From: Actinomycetota bacterium | GTDB lineage: Bacteria > Actinomycetota > Thermoleophilia > RBG-16-64-13 | Direction: 5' to 3' | Assembly: GCA_003157225.1 (NCBI GenBank) | Contig: PMIZ01000436.1 | Location: 9,204-15,191, forward strand | Length of the DNA stretch: 5,988 nt | In this document: piece by piece, positions 1 to 5,932 of the stretch | Layout of the letters: each line of letters starts with the position of its first letter | Position numbering within the stretch: position 1 is the first letter of the stretch | Notes under the pieces: generated by a model | Databases searched by the model: none | What the model was told of the DNA's origin: nothing | The model's input: only the letters and a program-made list of their open reading frames with translations | Program-made: the position numbers and the translations under genes

Positions 1-897
1 CAGGATCAGCGGCAGAAGCTGGAGACAGACTGGGAAGTGGACTTCTCCTATTCGCTCTATGGCATGGCTCGCTTTCGCGTGAACGCCTACTTCCAGCGCG
101 GTACGCTCAGTGCGGCCTTCAGGCTGGTGCCCGTTGGTATCAAGTCCATAGACCAACTGGGTCTGCCGAAGATTCTCCATTCCTTCTGCCACAAGCCCCG
201 CGGGTTCGTGTTGGTCACCGGTCCTACCGGCTCGGGCAAATCCACGACTCTGGCTTCCATCGTTGACGAGATCAACCAGACGCGCGCCGACCACATCGTG
301 ACCATCGAAGACCCCATCGAATTCCTGCATACCCACAAGCGCTGCGTGGTGAATCAGCGAGAGATCGGAAGCGACACCAGGAGCTTCCCCGTGGCCCTAC
401 GGTCGGCCTTGCGGCAGGACCCCGACGTCATACTCATCGGAGAGATGCGTGACCTCGAGACCATCCAGATCGCGCTGACAGCCGCCGAGACTGGGCACTT
501 GGTGTTCGCCACCCTTCACACGCAGGACTGCCCGCAATCGGTCGACCGCATCATCGACGTGTTCCCGCCTCATCAGCAAGAGCAGATCAGGGTGCAGATT
601 GCGGCCACTCTAGAGGGCATCGTGTCCCAACAGCTGCTCTCTAAGGCTGGGATGAAGGGCAGGGTCGTGGCCTGCGAGGTTCTCATGAGCACTCCTGCCG
701 CACGGAACCTCATCCGCGAGGGCAAGACCCACCAGCTCTACACGGTCATGCAGACCGGCAACCAGTACGGTATGCAGACCATGAACTCCTCGCTCGCCGA
801 TCTAGTGCGGCACGGTCAAATCACAAGGGAACTCGCACTCCGGCGGTCTTCAGTGCCCGACGAGCTGGAGCGCCTGCTTCTTGTCGGAGCGGCTTGA
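1..897 (+). CDS. pilT: Type IV pilus retraction ATPase PilT (5' truncated by window)
   Basis: PilT is the cytoplasmic hexameric ATPase that powers pilus depolymerisation and retraction (twitching). The frame is open from base 1 with no start codon in a plausible place, so the N-terminal part lies outside the window; 298 residues are visible. The ARFRVN segment comes first (around nt 67-84). Walker A GPTGSGKST follows at nt 220-246, then the acidic Asp box (VTIEDPIEF, about nt 298-324), Walker B (DPDVILIGEMRD, about nt 418-453) and the His box (ATLHT, about nt 508-522). AARNLIRE at nt 697-720 is a near match to the AIRNLIRE motif that distinguishes PilT retraction ATPases from PilB extension ATPases. 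The stop is TGA at 895-897, and pilC follows on the same strand after 127 bases. A GTG at 37 opens an internal frame, but conserved sequence continues upstream of it. Assignment to the PilT/PilU family is very secure; PilT versus PilU cannot be settled here. Confidence 0.95.
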   Translation, partial: QDQRQKLETDWEVDFSYSLYGMARFRVNAYFQRGTLSAAFRLVPVGIKSIDQLGLPKILHSFCHKPRGFVLVTGPTGSGKSTTLASIVDEINQTRADHIVTIEDPIEFLHTHKRCVVNQREIGSDTRSFPVALRSALRQDPDVILIGEMRDLETIQIALTAAETGHLVFATLHTQDCPQSVDRIIDVFPPHQQEQIRVQIAATLEGIVSQQLLSKAGMKGRVVACEVLMSTPAARNLIREGKTHQLYTVMQTGNQYGMQTMNSSLADLVRHGQITRELALRRSSVPDELERLLLVGAA

Positions 898-1024: not shown

Positions 1025-2239
1025 GTGGCTACTTATTCCTATACTGCGAAGCGCGAAAGAGGGGCTCCCTTCACGGGAGACGTGGCCGGCGACAACAAAG
1101 CCGCGGTGGTTGCGGAACTTCGCCGCAAAGGGCTTACGGTCCTCAAGCTCGAGCAGAAGCGCAGCATCCCCGACATCCGTACGATTCTGGAGTCCAGCAC
1201 CAAGATCAAAGCGCGCGACAAGGCGGTCTTCGCTCGTCAGTTCGCGACGATGATTCAATCCGGGCTGGCCGTGTTGCGTGCTCTCTATGTACTCGAGGAG
1301 CAGACAGAGAACGTACGTTTCAAGAAGATCATCGCCTCCGTAAGAGAGGATGTCGAAGCGGGCATGGCGCTGTCCGATGCGATGGCCAGATATCCCGTAG
1401 CGTTCGACCGCCTGTACGTTTCGATGGTTCGCGCGGGCGAGGCGGGCGGCGCCCTCGACGCAACCCTTAACCGTTTGGCCGTCCAGTTGGAGAAAGACGA
1501 CAGCCTGCGCCGGACCATCAAGTCGGCCATGGCCTATCCTGTTCTGATTGCCTGCTTCGCCATCGTTGTCATGATCGGCATGCTGCTTTTCATCATCCCG
1601 ATCTTCTCCAAGATGTACGCCGACCTCGGAGGCAAACTGCCGACGCTCACGAGGATCATGATGGACCTCAGCAACCTGCTCAAGGGCTACTGGTTCGTAG
1701 TCTTTCCAGCGCTTTTCGGCATCGTCTGGGGACTCAAGCGACTCAAGAACACCGACAAGGGCCGGCAGTTCTGGGACCGCGCGAAGCTGAAGCTGCCCAT
1801 GAAGCTCGGACCGGTGATCCAGAAGATCGCCGTAGCGCGGTTCAGCCGCACCCTGGCGACACTGGTCGGGGCGGGCGTGCCAATCCTTCAATCCATCGAG
1901 ATAACGGGCAAGACCTCGGGCAACTACGTGATTGAGGAATCGATGGCAGACGTGAGAGAGAGCGTCCGCAGCGGTGAGTCCATTGCGAAACCGCTCTCGC
2001 GTGTGAAGGTGTTTCCGCCGATGGTCACGCATATGATATCCATCGGTGAAGAGACCGGGGCCCTCGATGCCATGCTGAATAAGATCGCCGACTTCTACGA
2101 GGACGAAGTCGAGGCGGCGGTCAAGTCTCTCACCTCCATCATCGAGCCGATCATGATGATGTTCGTCGGCGGACTCGTCGGTGTCATCGTCATCTCGATG
2201 TACCTGCCGATGTTCAACATGATGAACCTGGTGAAGTAG
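1025..2239 (+). CDS. pilC: Type IV pilus inner-membrane platform protein PilC
   Basis: PilC/GspF-family polytopic membrane protein that couples the PilB/PilT ATPases to pilin assembly and removal. At 404 residues it has the normal family length, with a GTG start and TAG stop. Two T2SF domains are visible as an internal duplication. FARQFATMIQSGL (69-81) parallels FSRTLATLVGAGV (273-285), and MVRAGEAGGALD (134-145) parallels MISIGEETGALD (337-348). Hydrophobic segments fall at about 170-194, 222-238 and 373-397, giving the usual three membrane helices. It follows pilT on the same strand, and the two probably belong to a larger pilus cluster extending upstream. The next gene, apt, is convergent, so pilC ends this transcription unit. 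A sigma28-like -10 and a stable hairpin precede it. Confidence 0.96.
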   Translation: MATYSYTAKRERGAPFTGDVAGDNKAAVVAELRRKGLTVLKLEQKRSIPDIRTILESSTKIKARDKAVFARQFATMIQSGLAVLRALYVLEEQTENVRFKKIIASVREDVEAGMALSDAMARYPVAFDRLYVSMVRAGEAGGALDATLNRLAVQLEKDDSLRRTIKSAMAYPVLIACFAIVVMIGMLLFIIPIFSKMYADLGGKLPTLTRIMMDLSNLLKGYWFVVFPALFGIVWGLKRLKNTDKGRQFWDRAKLKLPMKLGPVIQKIAVARFSRTLATLVGAGVPILQSIEITGKTSGNYVIEESMADVRESVRSGESIAKPLSRVKVFPPMVTHMISIGEETGALDAMLNKIADFYEDEVEAAVKSLTSIIEPIMMMFVGGLVGVIVISMYLPMFNMMNLVK

Positions 2240-2332: not shown

Positions 2333-2851
2333 CTAGACCTCGTACGTCAGCAGACTGAAGACCTCGTAACCTTCCAATCGGTCCCTCCCATGAAGCTCGG
2401 TGAGCTCTATTAGGAAGGCCAGGCCGGCCACGATCCCACCGGCATCCTCGACGAGGCAAATCTTCGCAGCTGCGGTGCCGCCGGTCGCGAGCAGGTCGTC
2501 ATGGATGAGGACACGCTGTCCCGGCTTGATGGCGTCAGAGTGCATCTCGAGAACATCGGTGCCGTACTCCAGGTCGTATTCGCAGCGATTGACCTTCCAA
2601 GGAAGCTTCCCAGGCTTGCGTGCGGTCGCGAAGCCTACTCCCAGCGCGTAAGCGAGCGCAGCTCCCAGAATGAAGCCACGGGCCTCAGCCCCAAGTATAA
2701 GGTCGACCTGCCTCCCGCGCGCGAACTCCGCCAATTGGTCCACCGAGTAGTGCAAAGCTTCGGCATCCTGAAGCATTGGCATGATGTCATGAAACAGAAT
2801 TCCCTCTTTGGGAAAACCAGGGATGTGGCGGATGAACCTGTCTAGTTCCAT
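2333..2851 (-). CDS. apt: Adenine phosphoribosyltransferase
   Basis: Cytoplasmic purine-salvage enzyme: adenine + PRPP gives AMP + pyrophosphate. The 172 residues are the usual length for the family. Visible family signatures are FPKEGILFHDI (13-23), GAEARGF (54-60), RKPGKLPW (78-85), YDLEYGTDVLEMH (92-104) and the PRPP-binding loop VLIHDDLLATGGTA (114-127) with its two acidic residues. The ATG at 2849-2851 is preceded by AAGGAG (complement of 2856-2861) at a short 4-base spacing, and the protein begins right at the conserved region. The TAG stop lies within the palindrome TAGCGCGCTA (2326-2335). It is on the same strand as the MerR gene but 179 bases away, so a separate promoter is plausible. 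In many firmicutes and actinobacteria apt sits beside relA; that is not the case here. Confidence 0.97.
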   Translation of the reverse strand: MELDRFIRHIPGFPKEGILFHDIMPMLQDAEALHYSVDQLAEFARGRQVDLILGAEARGFILGAALAYALGVGFATARKPGKLPWKVNRCEYDLEYGTDVLEMHSDAIKPGQRVLIHDDLLATGGTAAAKICLVEDAGGIVAGLAFLIELTELHGRDRLEGYEVFSLLTYEV

Positions 2852-3030: not shown

Positions 3031-3786
3031 TCAAACGAGGCGCCGCAGCTCCTTGTAGAGCAGCAGGTGCAGGAGCTGGGAGAAGAGAGCGCCCAGGTCG
3101 CTCAGCATCTTCTCCCCGTACTCACGTTTGTCCGGGTGCGAAGACCTGAGAGCGGGCGTGACTATTTGCTCGAGAATGGCGGCTTCTCGCTCGGTGGACG
3201 AACTCAACAGCCGGAGGTTTCGGGGCTCCACACCGAAACGAGTCAGAAGCTGGCAGATACGGGCGATTTCCAGGTCAGGCTCCGTGAAGGCCTTTCCCGT
3301 GCGCGCGGAGCGATCGATCAGACGATAATCCAGAAGGAGCTGCACGAACTGTGCGCTGGCGCCCGCGGTGTCGCACATCTCCTGCAGGGAATAAGCAGGT
3401 GCCTCCCGCCGCAGCACCGCCCCAGAACGGCCACCGACCGCTCCCGGCAAGATAGGTTGACCCGATCCCATCGTCTTGCTCAGCTCGACTCGCTGCTTGA
3501 TGACCTCCAGCGGCAGATACTCGTCGCGCTGGAGCGCGAGGATCGCGCGTAGGCGACGAACGTCGGCTGGGGAGTATTTGCGGTAGCGGCCCTTGGTCCT
3601 CGCCGGAGATAGCAACCCTCGATCCTCGAGGTATCGCACCTTGGTGATGCTCAAATCCGGAAAATCGGGCTGCAACAAAGCGACGAGCTGTCCGATGTTG
3701 AGAAGCCGCTCGGGCTGACCTCGTCCCGGTTGTGCGGGTGGCACCTGCTCGCCCGGCCGGCCAGAACGTCTTGCCGCGTCTACCAT
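3031..3786 (-). CDS. ftsR: MerR-family transcriptional regulator, FtsR/Rv1828-like
   Basis: DNA-binding regulator of 251 residues. A MerR-type winged helix spans about 28-98 (LLNIGQLVALL, ITKVRYLEDRGLLSP, GRYRKYSPADVRRLRAI). A linker at about 103-128 is followed by a second helical domain (131-251) with YSLQEMCDTAG and FGVEPRNLRLL. This layout and the position after an FHA gene match the effector-independent regulators Rv1828 of Mycobacterium and FtsR of Corynebacterium, the latter linked to ftsZ control. No cysteine cluster for metal sensing is present. I chose the ATG at 3786: it begins 7 bases after the FHA stop, suggesting translational coupling, though its Shine-Dalgarno is poor. An in-frame ATG at 3858 would add 24 residues that only shadow the conserved end of the FHA gene. 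Conserved sequence begins near residue 28, so a later start is possible. Last gene of the rsiG-FHA-merR run. Confidence 0.85.
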   Translation of the reverse strand: MVDAARRSGRPGEQVPPAQPGRGQPERLLNIGQLVALLQPDFPDLSITKVRYLEDRGLLSPARTKGRYRKYSPADVRRLRAILALQRDEYLPLEVIKQRVELSKTMGSGQPILPGAVGGRSGAVLRREAPAYSLQEMCDTAGASAQFVQLLLDYRLIDRSARTGKAFTEPDLEIARICQLLTRFGVEPRNLRLLSSSTEREAAILEQIVTPALRSSHPDKREYGEKMLSDLGALFSQLLHLLLYKELRRLV

Positions 3787-3793
3787 GCTGAAC

Positions 3794-4570
3794 TCAGAGG
3801 TCGTCGGCTTCGGCGAGAAAAGCCAACTTGAACTTGCCGATCTGTACCTCATCGCCATCGAAAAGCTGATGCCGTTCGATGCGTTTGCGATTCACGTACG
3901 TACCGTTCAGGCTGTTGAGATCCTCGATGAGGAAACCCGTCTCGTCATGAAGGACGCGCGCGTGATGCCGCGACACGGTCACGTCGTCGAGAAAGAGATC
4001 GCTGTGCGGACTCCGTCCGATGGTGAGGACATCGCTCTCGATGCCCACCACTTGGCCCTCCCGGCCACCGCCCGCGCTGATCAGCAGCACCGGGCCCGCC
4101 AAGACGGCTCGCCTTGCAGCTTCACCCTCCATCTCCTCCCGCTCCGTGAGCGCTAACGAGAGCGTGGTCTCCTCCAGGTCGACAGGCCTGAGGCGGCTGC
4201 CACATCGGCTGCAGAAGTTGGCGTCGAGGGAGTTCTGGGCGTTGCACGCCCTGCAAACGACAGTCTCGGACGGGCACGTCTTGTCCGCCTTTTGCTTCTC
4301 TAGCGTCGTCACCGGGCGATAGCTCGCGAACTGGCGGCGGATCTCCTCTTCGATCGCGCGAATGACGGACGGGTTCTCGAGGATCTGCGCCCGCTCCTGG
4401 GCGCTGGTGTGACTGGCGAGATACTGGTCGTCGAGAATGTCATCAACGTGACGCCCCGACCGAAGCTGCCTCACGATGTATCGGATGACACGTTCTTCAC
4501 GAACGTCGACCGACAGGTCGCGAAATCTCTTCTGAATGCCCCGGACAACCGGCTCAACGTCATCGGTCAT
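3794..4570 (-). CDS. FHA-domain protein with zinc ribbon and GarA/OdhI-like phospho-motif
   Basis: Cytoplasmic protein of 258 residues. The N-terminus (about 1-82) is charged, helical and of unrecognised family. A zinc ribbon follows (C106-x2-C109, C120-x2-C123). Next is an acidic linker with E134-T135-T136, then an FHA domain (about 160-255) with G185-R186-S187, S200-R201-H202-H203 and N222-G223-T224. Several FHA stretches (LFLDDVTVSRHHA, LNGTYVN, GDEVQIGKFKLAFL) are very close to mycobacterial GarA and corynebacterial OdhI as I recall them. In those proteins an ETT motif ahead of the FHA domain is phosphorylated by PknB/PknG-type kinases and then bound by the FHA domain in cis, switching control of 2-oxoglutarate and glutamate metabolism. 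By inference this protein may be a kinase-controlled switch. GarA is about 160 residues without a zinc ribbon, so the N-terminal half here is an addition. The ATG at 4570 has CAGGAG 9 bases upstream (complement of 4580-4585). It starts 6 bases after the rsiG stop. Confidence 0.88.
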   Translation of the reverse strand: MTDDVEPVVRGIQKRFRDLSVDVREERVIRYIVRQLRSGRHVDDILDDQYLASHTSAQERAQILENPSVIRAIEEEIRRQFASYRPVTTLEKQKADKTCPSETVVCRACNAQNSLDANFCSRCGSRLRPVDLEETTLSLALTEREEMEGEAARRAVLAGPVLLISAGGGREGQVVGIESDVLTIGRSPHSDLFLDDVTVSRHHARVLHDETGFLIEDLNSLNGTYVNRKRIERHQLFDGDEVQIGKFKLAFLAEADDL

Positions 4571-4576
4571 GCGGAA

Positions 4577-4861
4577 TCACTCCTGCCGCAGTGGATCCTC
4601 TCCCGCTCCGCGACTGCTGAGAATCTCTGTGAGAGTGGCAACGTCACCATCCTGGACAAGCCCCCCGGCTCTGCTCTTGTCGCGTAGCCTTCTGACCATC
4701 TCAGCTCGGACGATGTCCAACTCGCCGTGTAGAAGGCGCCTGCGCATCGACAGTTCTTGCTCGTCTGCAGCCAGCCGGACGGCCAGCGTCTTCAGTTCCT
4801 CGTCGGTATACGACTGTATCTTGACGAGGCGTTCGAAAGAAGAATCGTTCAAGGCTTCCAC
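4577..4861 (-). CDS. rsiG: Small RsiG-like anti-sigma factor with a single c-di-GMP motif
   Basis: Protein of 94 residues, mostly charged helix (about 18-63), suited to an antiparallel coiled coil. It contains E34-x3-S38-x2-R41-x3-H45-x3-D49, matching the RsiG c-di-GMP signature E(X)3S(X)2R(X)3Q(X)3D except for His in place of Gln. Streptomyces RsiG carries two copies and binds sigma WhiG as a monomer. Single-copy RsiGs of basal actinobacteria form homodimers, and in Rubrobacter radiotolerans the complex controls type IV pilus genes. The surrounding residues (YTDEELKTLA, LSMRRRLLHGELDIVRAE) also look like that family. The GTG at 4861 has no good Shine-Dalgarno, but a promoter is placed so that transcription would begin at that codon. 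A TTG three codons later is an alternative. It is first in a tight run with the FHA and MerR genes. The family call is from memory of the motif; a generic coiled-coil protein is the alternative. Confidence 0.72.
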   Translation of the reverse strand: MEALNDSSFERLVKIQSYTDEELKTLAVRLAADEQELSMRRRLLHGELDIVRAEMVRRLRDKSRAGGLVQDGDVATLTEILSSRGAGEDPLRQE

Positions 4862-4914: not shown

Positions 4915-5298
4915 CTATTCCTCTGAGGCCAGAAGTTCGTTGTACTCGTCCGCCGTCATGAGATCGTCGGCCTCGGAAGGATCGCTCAGCCGCACCTTGA
5001 TGAGCCAGCCCTCCTCATAAGGGCTCTCGTTAATGAGCTCGGGCGCGTCGACCACTTCGTCGTTGACTTCCAGAACCGATCCGCTCAAAGGCGCGTAGAC
5101 ATCAGAGACGGCCTTCACCGACTCGACCTCAGCGTAGGACGACCCGGCAACGACGTCCGTGCCTACCTCGGGGAGTTCGATGAACACGATGTCACCGAGC
5201 GTCTCCTGGGCGTAGTCGGTGAGACCAAAGACTGCGGTGTCACCATCGATCCGAACCCAGTCGTGCTCCCTGTGGTACTTGAGGTTCTTAGGATTCAC
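4915..5298 (-). CDS. gcvH: Glycine cleavage system H protein
   Basis: Lipoyl carrier of the glycine cleavage complex. It shuttles the aminomethyl group among the P, T and L proteins during glycine breakdown to CO2, ammonia and methylene-tetrahydrofolate. The 127 residues are the standard length. YHREHDWVRIDGDTAVFGLTDYAQ and LGDIVFIELPEVG are typical family segments in sequence order. The lipoylated lysine is K62 in ESVKAVSD, followed by PLSGSVLEVN and the C-terminal NESPYEEGWLIKV. The GTG start at 5296-5298 has an excellent AAAGGAG (complement of 5304-5310) at 5 bases. No other gcv gene is next to it, which matches the lone gcvH before garA in mycobacteria. It is the first gene on the minus strand after a divergent promoter region shared with mglB. 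Confidence 0.97.
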   Translation of the reverse strand: MNPKNLKYHREHDWVRIDGDTAVFGLTDYAQETLGDIVFIELPEVGTDVVAGSSYAEVESVKAVSDVYAPLSGSVLEVNDEVVDAPELINESPYEEGWLIKVRLSDPSEADDLMTADEYNELLASEE

Positions 5299-5403: not shown

Positions 5404-5412
5404 GTGAGTGCA

Positions 5413-5423
5413 GGGTCTGACCC
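5413..5423. repeat. Palindrome GGGTC-T-GACCC in the mglB leader
   Basis: Perfect 5-base arms around one central base, just downstream of the predicted transcription start and one base before AAGGAGG. A protein bound at this spot would block the promoter. With only a one-base centre it cannot form a good RNA hairpin, so a DNA operator is the more natural reading. Confidence 0.3.
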
Positions 5424-5424
5424 G

Positions 5425-5431
5425 AAGGAGG
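5425..5431 (+). promoter_or_regulatory. Ribosome binding site deciding the mglB start
   Basis: A near-perfect AAGGAGG lies 6 bases before the GTG at 5438. This makes that codon the start rather than the in-frame GTG at 5408, which lies almost at the predicted transcription start. Confidence 0.85.
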
Positions 5432-5437
5432 ATCGCG

Positions 5438-5932
5438 GTGGCACGTCGCAGAGGTCTCGTCATTAACGACGAGCAGATGCAGATGATAGACGCTGTTCTC
5501 AGCAAGCTGCAGCGCGTAGCCGGCTCCACCTTCGTCGCCCTGATCTCTACTAGTGGCCAACCCATCACTACCGCTCCGCCCGACGTGGATGCCGACACCT
5601 TGTCCCTGGCTGCACTGGCCGCCGGTTCTTTTGCGGCTACTCGCCAACTGGCCGAGGTCCTGAAGGAACGAGAGTTCACCCTCTTGTTCCACGAGGGCCG
5701 CGAATCGAATCTTCACGTGGTGCAGGTGACCGAGCAGATCCTCCTGCTGATCACCTTCGGCCACGATACCCAGGTCGGCCGGGTGAGACTCTACACGAGC
5801 AGGGCAGTCGAGGTGCTCAAGCCGATTTTCGAAGATGCCGAAGAAGACCACGGGGGCGAACAGGTGATCGATCGCGATTATTCCCGGGAGGCTGGAACCG
5901 CGATCGACGACTGGTTCCCCCGCACCGAGTGA
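5438..5932 (+). CDS. mglB: MglB-like Roadblock/LC7 protein
   Basis: Protein of 164 residues with a Roadblock/LC7 domain (about 14-125). MglB proteins dimerise and act on the Ras-like GTPase MglA as activating and exchange partners, setting cell polarity for gliding or type IV pilus motility. Typical features are the opening helix (DEQMQMIDAVLSKLQRVAG), a strand-rich core (FVALISTSGQPI), a helix with AALAAGSFAATRQLAEVL, and LLLITFGHDTQVGRVRLY, recalling the domain's conserved hydrophobic end. After an acidic stretch (132-138) the tail VIDRDYSREAGTAIDDWF resembles the C-terminal helix of Thermus MglB as I remember it. The N-terminus is basic (ARRRG). The MglA-like gene begins 22 bases after the stop, so the two are almost certainly co-transcribed. 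Roadblock proteins are diverse in actinobacteria, where many pair with GTPases and sensor kinases; the tail and partner favour MglB. Confidence 0.82.
   Translation: MARRRGLVINDEQMQMIDAVLSKLQRVAGSTFVALISTSGQPITTAPPDVDADTLSLAALAAGSFAATRQLAEVLKEREFTLLFHEGRESNLHVVQVTEQILLLITFGHDTQVGRVRLYTSRAVEVLKPIFEDAEEDHGGEQVIDRDYSREAGTAIDDWFPRTE

Follow-up and report, generated by a model that had tools for sequence, protein, structure and literature searches.

A single-motif RsiG from an uncultured lineage of Thermoleophilia, with the main type IV pilin and a putative small RNA as candidate WhiG targets in its relatives

Single-motif RsiGs were described in 2021 from two Rubrobacter and three Thermoleophilia species, five in all, and the account that follows is limited to the available text of that study (PMC8325347). 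In Rubrobacter, two RsiG copies form a homodimer and hold a c-di-GMP dimer against WhiG; the pilus cluster there contains WhiG-type promoters. The glutamine of the motif is replaceable by histidine, and the histidine-bearing RsiG of Conexibacter binds c-di-GMP with a Kd of 25 uM and more tightly with WhiG. Single-motif relatives bind WhiG experimentally; when alone, single-motif RsiGs bind c-di-GMP more weakly than the twin-motif RsiG. The single-motif form as the ancestral state is the published view.

The window analysed here, which is the whole stretch of 5,988 nucleotides, contains a candidate for this family within a group of genes that includes components of a type IV pilus.

1–897, plus strand: type IV pilus ATPase of the PilT/PilB type, 5' end outside the window (open frame, PF00437)
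1025–2239, plus strand: PilC-type pilus inner-membrane protein (PF00482)
2333–2851, minus strand: apt, adenine phosphoribosyltransferase (TIGR01090 and NF002633, both over cut-off)
3031–3858, minus strand: FtsR, MerR-type regulator (NF050798, E = 4.6e-58, over cut-off, residues 53–272)
3794–4570, minus strand: FHA-domain protein with zinc ribbon (PF00498, E = 1.9e-21; PF13240)
4577–4861, minus strand: rsiG, single-motif RsiG of 94 amino acids with a GTG start (open reading frame, PF22802, matches to RsiG in the PDB)
4715–4762, minus strand: E-S-R-H-D c-di-GMP motif, codons 34–49 (translation; conservation in homologues)
4915–5298, minus strand: gcvH, glycine cleavage H protein, upstream of rsiG (profile searches)
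5408–5932, plus strand: Roadblock/LC7 protein, MglB-like, divergent from gcvH (PF03259; MglB model below cut-off)

Judged by its sequence, the protein encoded at 4577–4861 is a single-motif RsiG and a member of the known family. A Pfam profile search places it in PF22802 (RsiG; E = 1.1e-13, 51 bits against a cut-off of 27), its best sequence match in the PDB is Streptomyces RsiG (6pfj, deposited as AmfC; E = 3.6e-9) and Rubrobacter RsiG is also matched (7lq2, 7lq3 and 7lq4; E 1e-6 to 4e-6), which bears out the RsiG homology proposed in the preliminary description. A second Pfam family, EAD7, scored under its cut-off, and NCBIfam models gave no match up to E = 1. The motif residues read from the translation are Glu34, Ser38, Arg41, His45 and Asp49, and the plus strand over the same positions is closed by two stops. 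In an AlphaFold2 model (mean pLDDT 78, pTM 0.53) helices span residues 8–13, 20–64 and 73–85, with the motif on the long one; the open-reading-frame translation, the motif residues and this model thus agree with the earlier claim of a motif on one helix of a 94-residue protein. The model has the layout of single-motif RsiGs, in which short helices at both termini flank a long coiled-coil one, and the protein is of single-motif type in its length, its one motif and its lack of a second motif helix. A Foldseek search of the model against the PDB gave no match at E <= 0.001, a result that is uninformative because the query fold is one long helix.

A total of 174 homologues were found. Among the best 120 of these, every protein has exactly one motif, and the fourth motif place is histidine in 110 and glutamine in ten; all five motif residues are invariant across a hand-picked alignment of 34 sequences. 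Among named genomes, the MAG RBG_16_64_13 is nearest (79% identity), and two homologues among the best 120 of 174, at 71% identity, are named as from a Thermoleophilia bacterium. The expectation that such a protein would be annotated as hypothetical fits most of the named homologues in the same 120, although three are named RsiG-like. Since single-motif RsiGs, those with histidine included, are described in the available text of PMC8325347, the window protein is of a known kind; what goes beyond the known family comes from its relatives: a conserved gene order, promoters at pilin genes and a putative small RNA.

The RsiGs of Rubrobacter radiotolerans and Conexibacter woesei, as far as the available text of that paper describes them, resemble the window protein in being small, with one motif and a long helix flanked by short helices, and the C. 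woesei protein shares the histidine at the fourth motif place. WhiG occurs in the same genomes, which for the window lineage is seen in relatives, and pilus genes are targets in Rubrobacter and, by promoter evidence, candidate targets in the relatives of the window RsiG. In contrast to both, the window protein comes from an uncultured lineage around RBG_16_64_13, and its relatives have a putative small RNA behind a WhiG-type promoter. Streptomyces venezuelae RsiG (6pfj and 6pfv) belongs to the same family and has the same motif, but it carries two motifs per chain, is a monomer and serves in sporulation control (available text of PMC8325347).

In the window the FHA gene begins 6 nt past the rsiG stop, and ftsR probably starts further downstream than listed. 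About 100 residues of the FHA protein, ahead of the zinc ribbon, are without a Pfam match over cut-off. The neighbourhood was compared across 22 chosen loci (L001, L002, 19 more class genomes and one from a phylum sample), with overlapping matches discarded, for which reason the window's own FHA match was lost. An FHA gene follows rsiG in all 22; apt is seen in 20 and FtsR, subject to the same dropping of overlapping matches, is shown in 19. Upstream, gcvH is present in 15/22 and the roadblock gene in 17/22, and a convergent pilC in 12/22, with several loci truncated by contig ends. Among the 30 phylum loci with the highest scores, taken as a second set, FHA adjoins rsiG in all 15 of single-motif type, whereas none of the 15 Streptomyces-type loci carries a gene for FHA or FtsR, or apt, within about 1.5 kb of rsiG. 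A literature search for RsiG together with FtsR found no paper, and no discussion of the rsiG–FHA–ftsR–apt order was found in the available text of PMC8325347. In L001 (8258–9574) a gene for an Arf-family (MglA-like) GTPase follows the MglB-like roadblock gene; the roadblock and GTPase genes beside the pilus genes are a possible polarity module.

The preliminary description presupposed a WhiG/FliA-type sigma factor as partner, and among the relatives one is indeed encoded: a FliA/WhiG sigma scores over the curated cut-off in both nearest named genomes. Among 16 close relatives, defined as the class genomes with the best RsiG matches, WhiG and GGDEF domains are each present in 16/16, and flagellin was found in none by a search that was positive in four of 14 control genomes. 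The c-di-GMP contacts of S. venezuelae WhiG (Lys57, Gly61 and Arg62) align with Lys, Gly and Arg of the WhiG of genome G001, and these contacts are kept in all 15 relatives that cover the site, the sixteenth being cut by a contig end. In a sample of 396 genomes of the phylum (RsiG called at E <= 1e-3 and WhiG at E <= 1e-45), RsiG was called in 248 and WhiG in 262; both were present in 234, RsiG only in 14, WhiG only in 28 and neither in 120, counts that ignore kinship. An RsiG relative is encoded in 118 of 149 genomes sampled from the class around RBG_16_64_13. By analogy with these genomes, the organism from which the window derives would possess WhiG and a comparable regulon. The pilus ATPase of the nearest genome (L001, 14982–16712) carries an MshEN domain. 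This domain binds c-di-GMP in some homologues, and c-di-GMP may therefore act on pili at two levels.

A scan of the window for WhiG-type promoters gave two matches with three mismatches against 1.75 expected, and none with up to two; being not beyond chance, these matches were rejected as evidence. Around rsiG and the neighbouring pil genes of 23 loci, 30 sites were found against 26.7 expected, and the local pilB, pilT and pilC were rejected as direct WhiG targets because sites are not enriched there. The genome-wide pattern TAAA-N15-GCCGATAA, with up to one mismatch, matched 62 times in the 16 relatives against 56 for the reversed pattern, indicating no global promoter enrichment in these genomes. 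When 30 of the 62 matches were inspected as loci, four lay upstream of a type IV pilin and five upstream of gatC.

Pilins were chosen by protein similarity regardless of promoter (matches in 15 of the 16 close relatives), and the 350 bp upstream of each were scanned, leaving out three of 16 main-pilin loci and one of 14 second-pilin loci for which no start was found. A WhiG-type site with up to two mismatches is present upstream of 11/13 main pilins (0.39 expected from shuffles) and one with up to one mismatch upstream of 8/13 (0.03 expected). The sites lie 87–310 bp upstream, and their count was reached by none of 200 shuffles; among second pilins a site was found upstream of 1/13. The main pilins of G045 and G252 have no WhiG-type site within 350 bp. 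A re-check with a longer stretch found a site at two of the three left-out main-pilin loci, both from G002; the third yielded no entry. The pilin loci of G002 (L158) and G440 (L159) have identical match scores and an identical promoter, so that they are not independent; this shared locus may reflect MAG contamination or transfer. In G418 (L113, from 1501) the beginning of an open frame of 284 residues, which resembles a DUF4388 protein, overlaps with a WhiG-type promoter sequence.

The gatC gene, again picked by protein similarity, was found in 15 of the 16 close relatives. With 13 loci parsed (G427 and G408 left out), a WhiG-type site with up to two mismatches is present at 12 (four exact; 0.23 expected), the G402 locus having none. 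Directly after this promoter lies a conserved element, with a GAGAGU...ACUCUC stem and CCCAU in the loop, followed by CCUUUCUCCUCU and then a GGGCGCC/GGCGCCC terminator with a T run. This element of about 65–70 nt is a putative small RNA. It is located at about 1229–1300 in L184 (G001), and also in L183, L185–L195 and L198–L212. It usually adjoins gatC, but in G188 the copy and its promoter lie 748 bp from gatC, and G001 and G427 each have a tandem pair of copies. The reading in which the promoter serves gatC itself was dropped because the terminator lies between promoter and gatC, because several sequences show a TATAAT-like box in this interval and because of the 748 bp separation in G188. 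The conserved, unpaired CCUUUCUCCUCU stretch resembles an anti-Shine–Dalgarno element and, going by its letters, may pair with Shine–Dalgarno sequences.

A covariance model built from 14 copies in 13 genomes gave strong matches (70–90 bits) to 17 copies in 15 of 149 class genomes; 13 of these 15 match by construction, the new finds being G452, G188 and the second G427 copy. Four further class genomes matched at 22–24 bits and were left out of the count. A WhiG-type promoter ends 7–9 nt before the stem in 15 of the 17 copies, one per genome in all 15 genomes, with up to two mismatches and exact in five (shuffles expect 0.17), although these copies are homologues rather than independent draws. 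No WhiG-type promoter precedes the second copy of the tandem pair in either G001 or G427. The spacer between the promoter boxes varies across the RNA copies while the boxes stay. The stems are conserved across copies, with compensatory changes in 0/13 pairs. In Rfam searches of seven of the 15 gatC loci, up to E = 1, no match overlaps the putative RNA; three matches were obtained, all below their gathering scores. A cspA thermoregulator match on the minus strand of L190 (1974–2313), beside the G252 small RNA, is likewise below its gathering score (41 against 78 bits, E = 1.1e-07). In G188, WhiG is present and RsiG gave no match, so that either the link between RsiG and the RNA is weakened or this genome is incomplete.

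A literature search on Thermoleophilia with small RNA and type IV pili found no paper. As the available text of PMC10578931 describes them, the sigma-28-dependent small RNAs of Escherichia coli are like the proposed RNA in being under a flagellar-type sigma factor. Those RNAs are derived from UTRs and act on flagella, whereas the RNA of the relatives stands alone with its own promoter and terminator; unlike the E. coli case, the relatives' genomes are without a flagellin match and their sigma factor has a c-di-GMP-dependent anti-sigma.

Twin-motif RsiGs also occur in the class. When ten class loci were fetched, two motif regions in one open frame were found in six (G485, G488, G113, G445, G493 and G499; the second motif of G493 carries Glu for Asp), while by the strict pattern two of the other four loci have one motif and two have none. 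The twin-motif gene (L143–L148) sits before the FHA gene in 6/6. When the two halves of each twin-motif protein are compared over 55 residues, identity reaches 0.60 and 0.62 in two proteins and 0.40–0.49 in the other four; the range in six Streptomyces-type proteins is 0.22–0.40. In a tree of halves, which has few columns and long branches, the class twin-motif halves fall among single-motif sequences of the class and away from the C halves of Streptomyces-type proteins. A common origin for all C halves is not rejected (p-AU 0.06); a single duplication for all twin-motif RsiGs is nevertheless disfavoured on account of gene position and half-to-half similarity. The class twin-motif RsiGs possibly represent a second, in-place duplication before the FHA gene.

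The best overall explanation, with a probability of roughly 0.88, is that the window encodes a single-motif RsiG that acts as a c-di-GMP-dependent anti-sigma factor of WhiG, with the main pilin and the putative RNA among its candidate targets. Two RsiG copies would pair as an antiparallel coiled coil, each giving one E-S-R-H-D motif, and together would clasp a c-di-GMP dimer that glues the pair to the flagellar-type sigma WhiG. At high c-di-GMP WhiG would be kept from use; when c-di-GMP falls it would be freed and its targets transcribed, which in this lineage, going by the promoters of relatives, would include the gene for the main type IV pilin as well as the putative small RNA. Family, motif, helix layout and gene order were computed, as were the WhiG contact residues and the promoter association in relatives, and homodimerization, ligand binding and WhiG inhibition would extend to the window RsiG by analogy with the Rubrobacter and Conexibacter proteins (available text of PMC8325347).

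It is unlikely that the protein has the RsiG fold and binds c-di-GMP but acts on a partner other than WhiG, for example the FHA protein or FtsR of the operon, with a role in cell division or metabolism. The constant position of FHA after rsiG (22/22 chosen loci, with FtsR shown in 19/22) and the 14 of 248 RsiG genomes without a strong WhiG match would suit such a partner, but RsiG and WhiG occur together in the other 234, the c-di-GMP-contact residues of WhiG are conserved in the relatives and single-motif relatives bind WhiG in experiment (available text of PMC8325347). Less probable still is a degenerate or ligand-free RsiG for which the hold on WhiG does not depend on c-di-GMP: the motif retains its five residues, and the Conexibacter protein functions with histidine instead of glutamine, against which stands the weaker c-di-GMP binding of single-motif RsiGs alone relative to twin-motif RsiG (both from the same text). 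The least credible alternative, now largely refuted, is a chance motif on the charged helix of a protein that is no RsiG. Charged helices can yield weak false matches, and the sub-threshold EAD7 match could be read in this way; however, PF22802 is over its curated cut-off, the pattern E(x)3S(x)2R(x)3[QH](x)3D arises in only 84 of 200,000 shuffles of the window protein, the motif is invariant and the gene order is conserved.

With the c-di-GMP-dependent anti-sigma role preferred, a wider reading is held with moderate confidence, namely that the RsiG–WhiG switch drives the main pilin and an undescribed small RNA in a lineage without a flagellin match, and that rsiG was fused into a twin-motif form a second time, within this operon. 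A switch known from two model groups is extended to a wide range of uncultured actinobacteria: an RsiG relative is present in 118 of 149 class genomes, compared with the five single-motif RsiGs of the 2021 survey (available text of PMC8325347). The conserved gene order ties rsiG to the ftsR regulator gene, and testable regulon members can be named: the main pilin, and the putative small RNA, which lies at a constant spacing from its promoter. Should the small RNA prove real, a sigma switch that depends on c-di-GMP would also operate at the post-transcriptional level, and a fall in c-di-GMP would change the translation of target mRNAs as well as leading to the making of pili.
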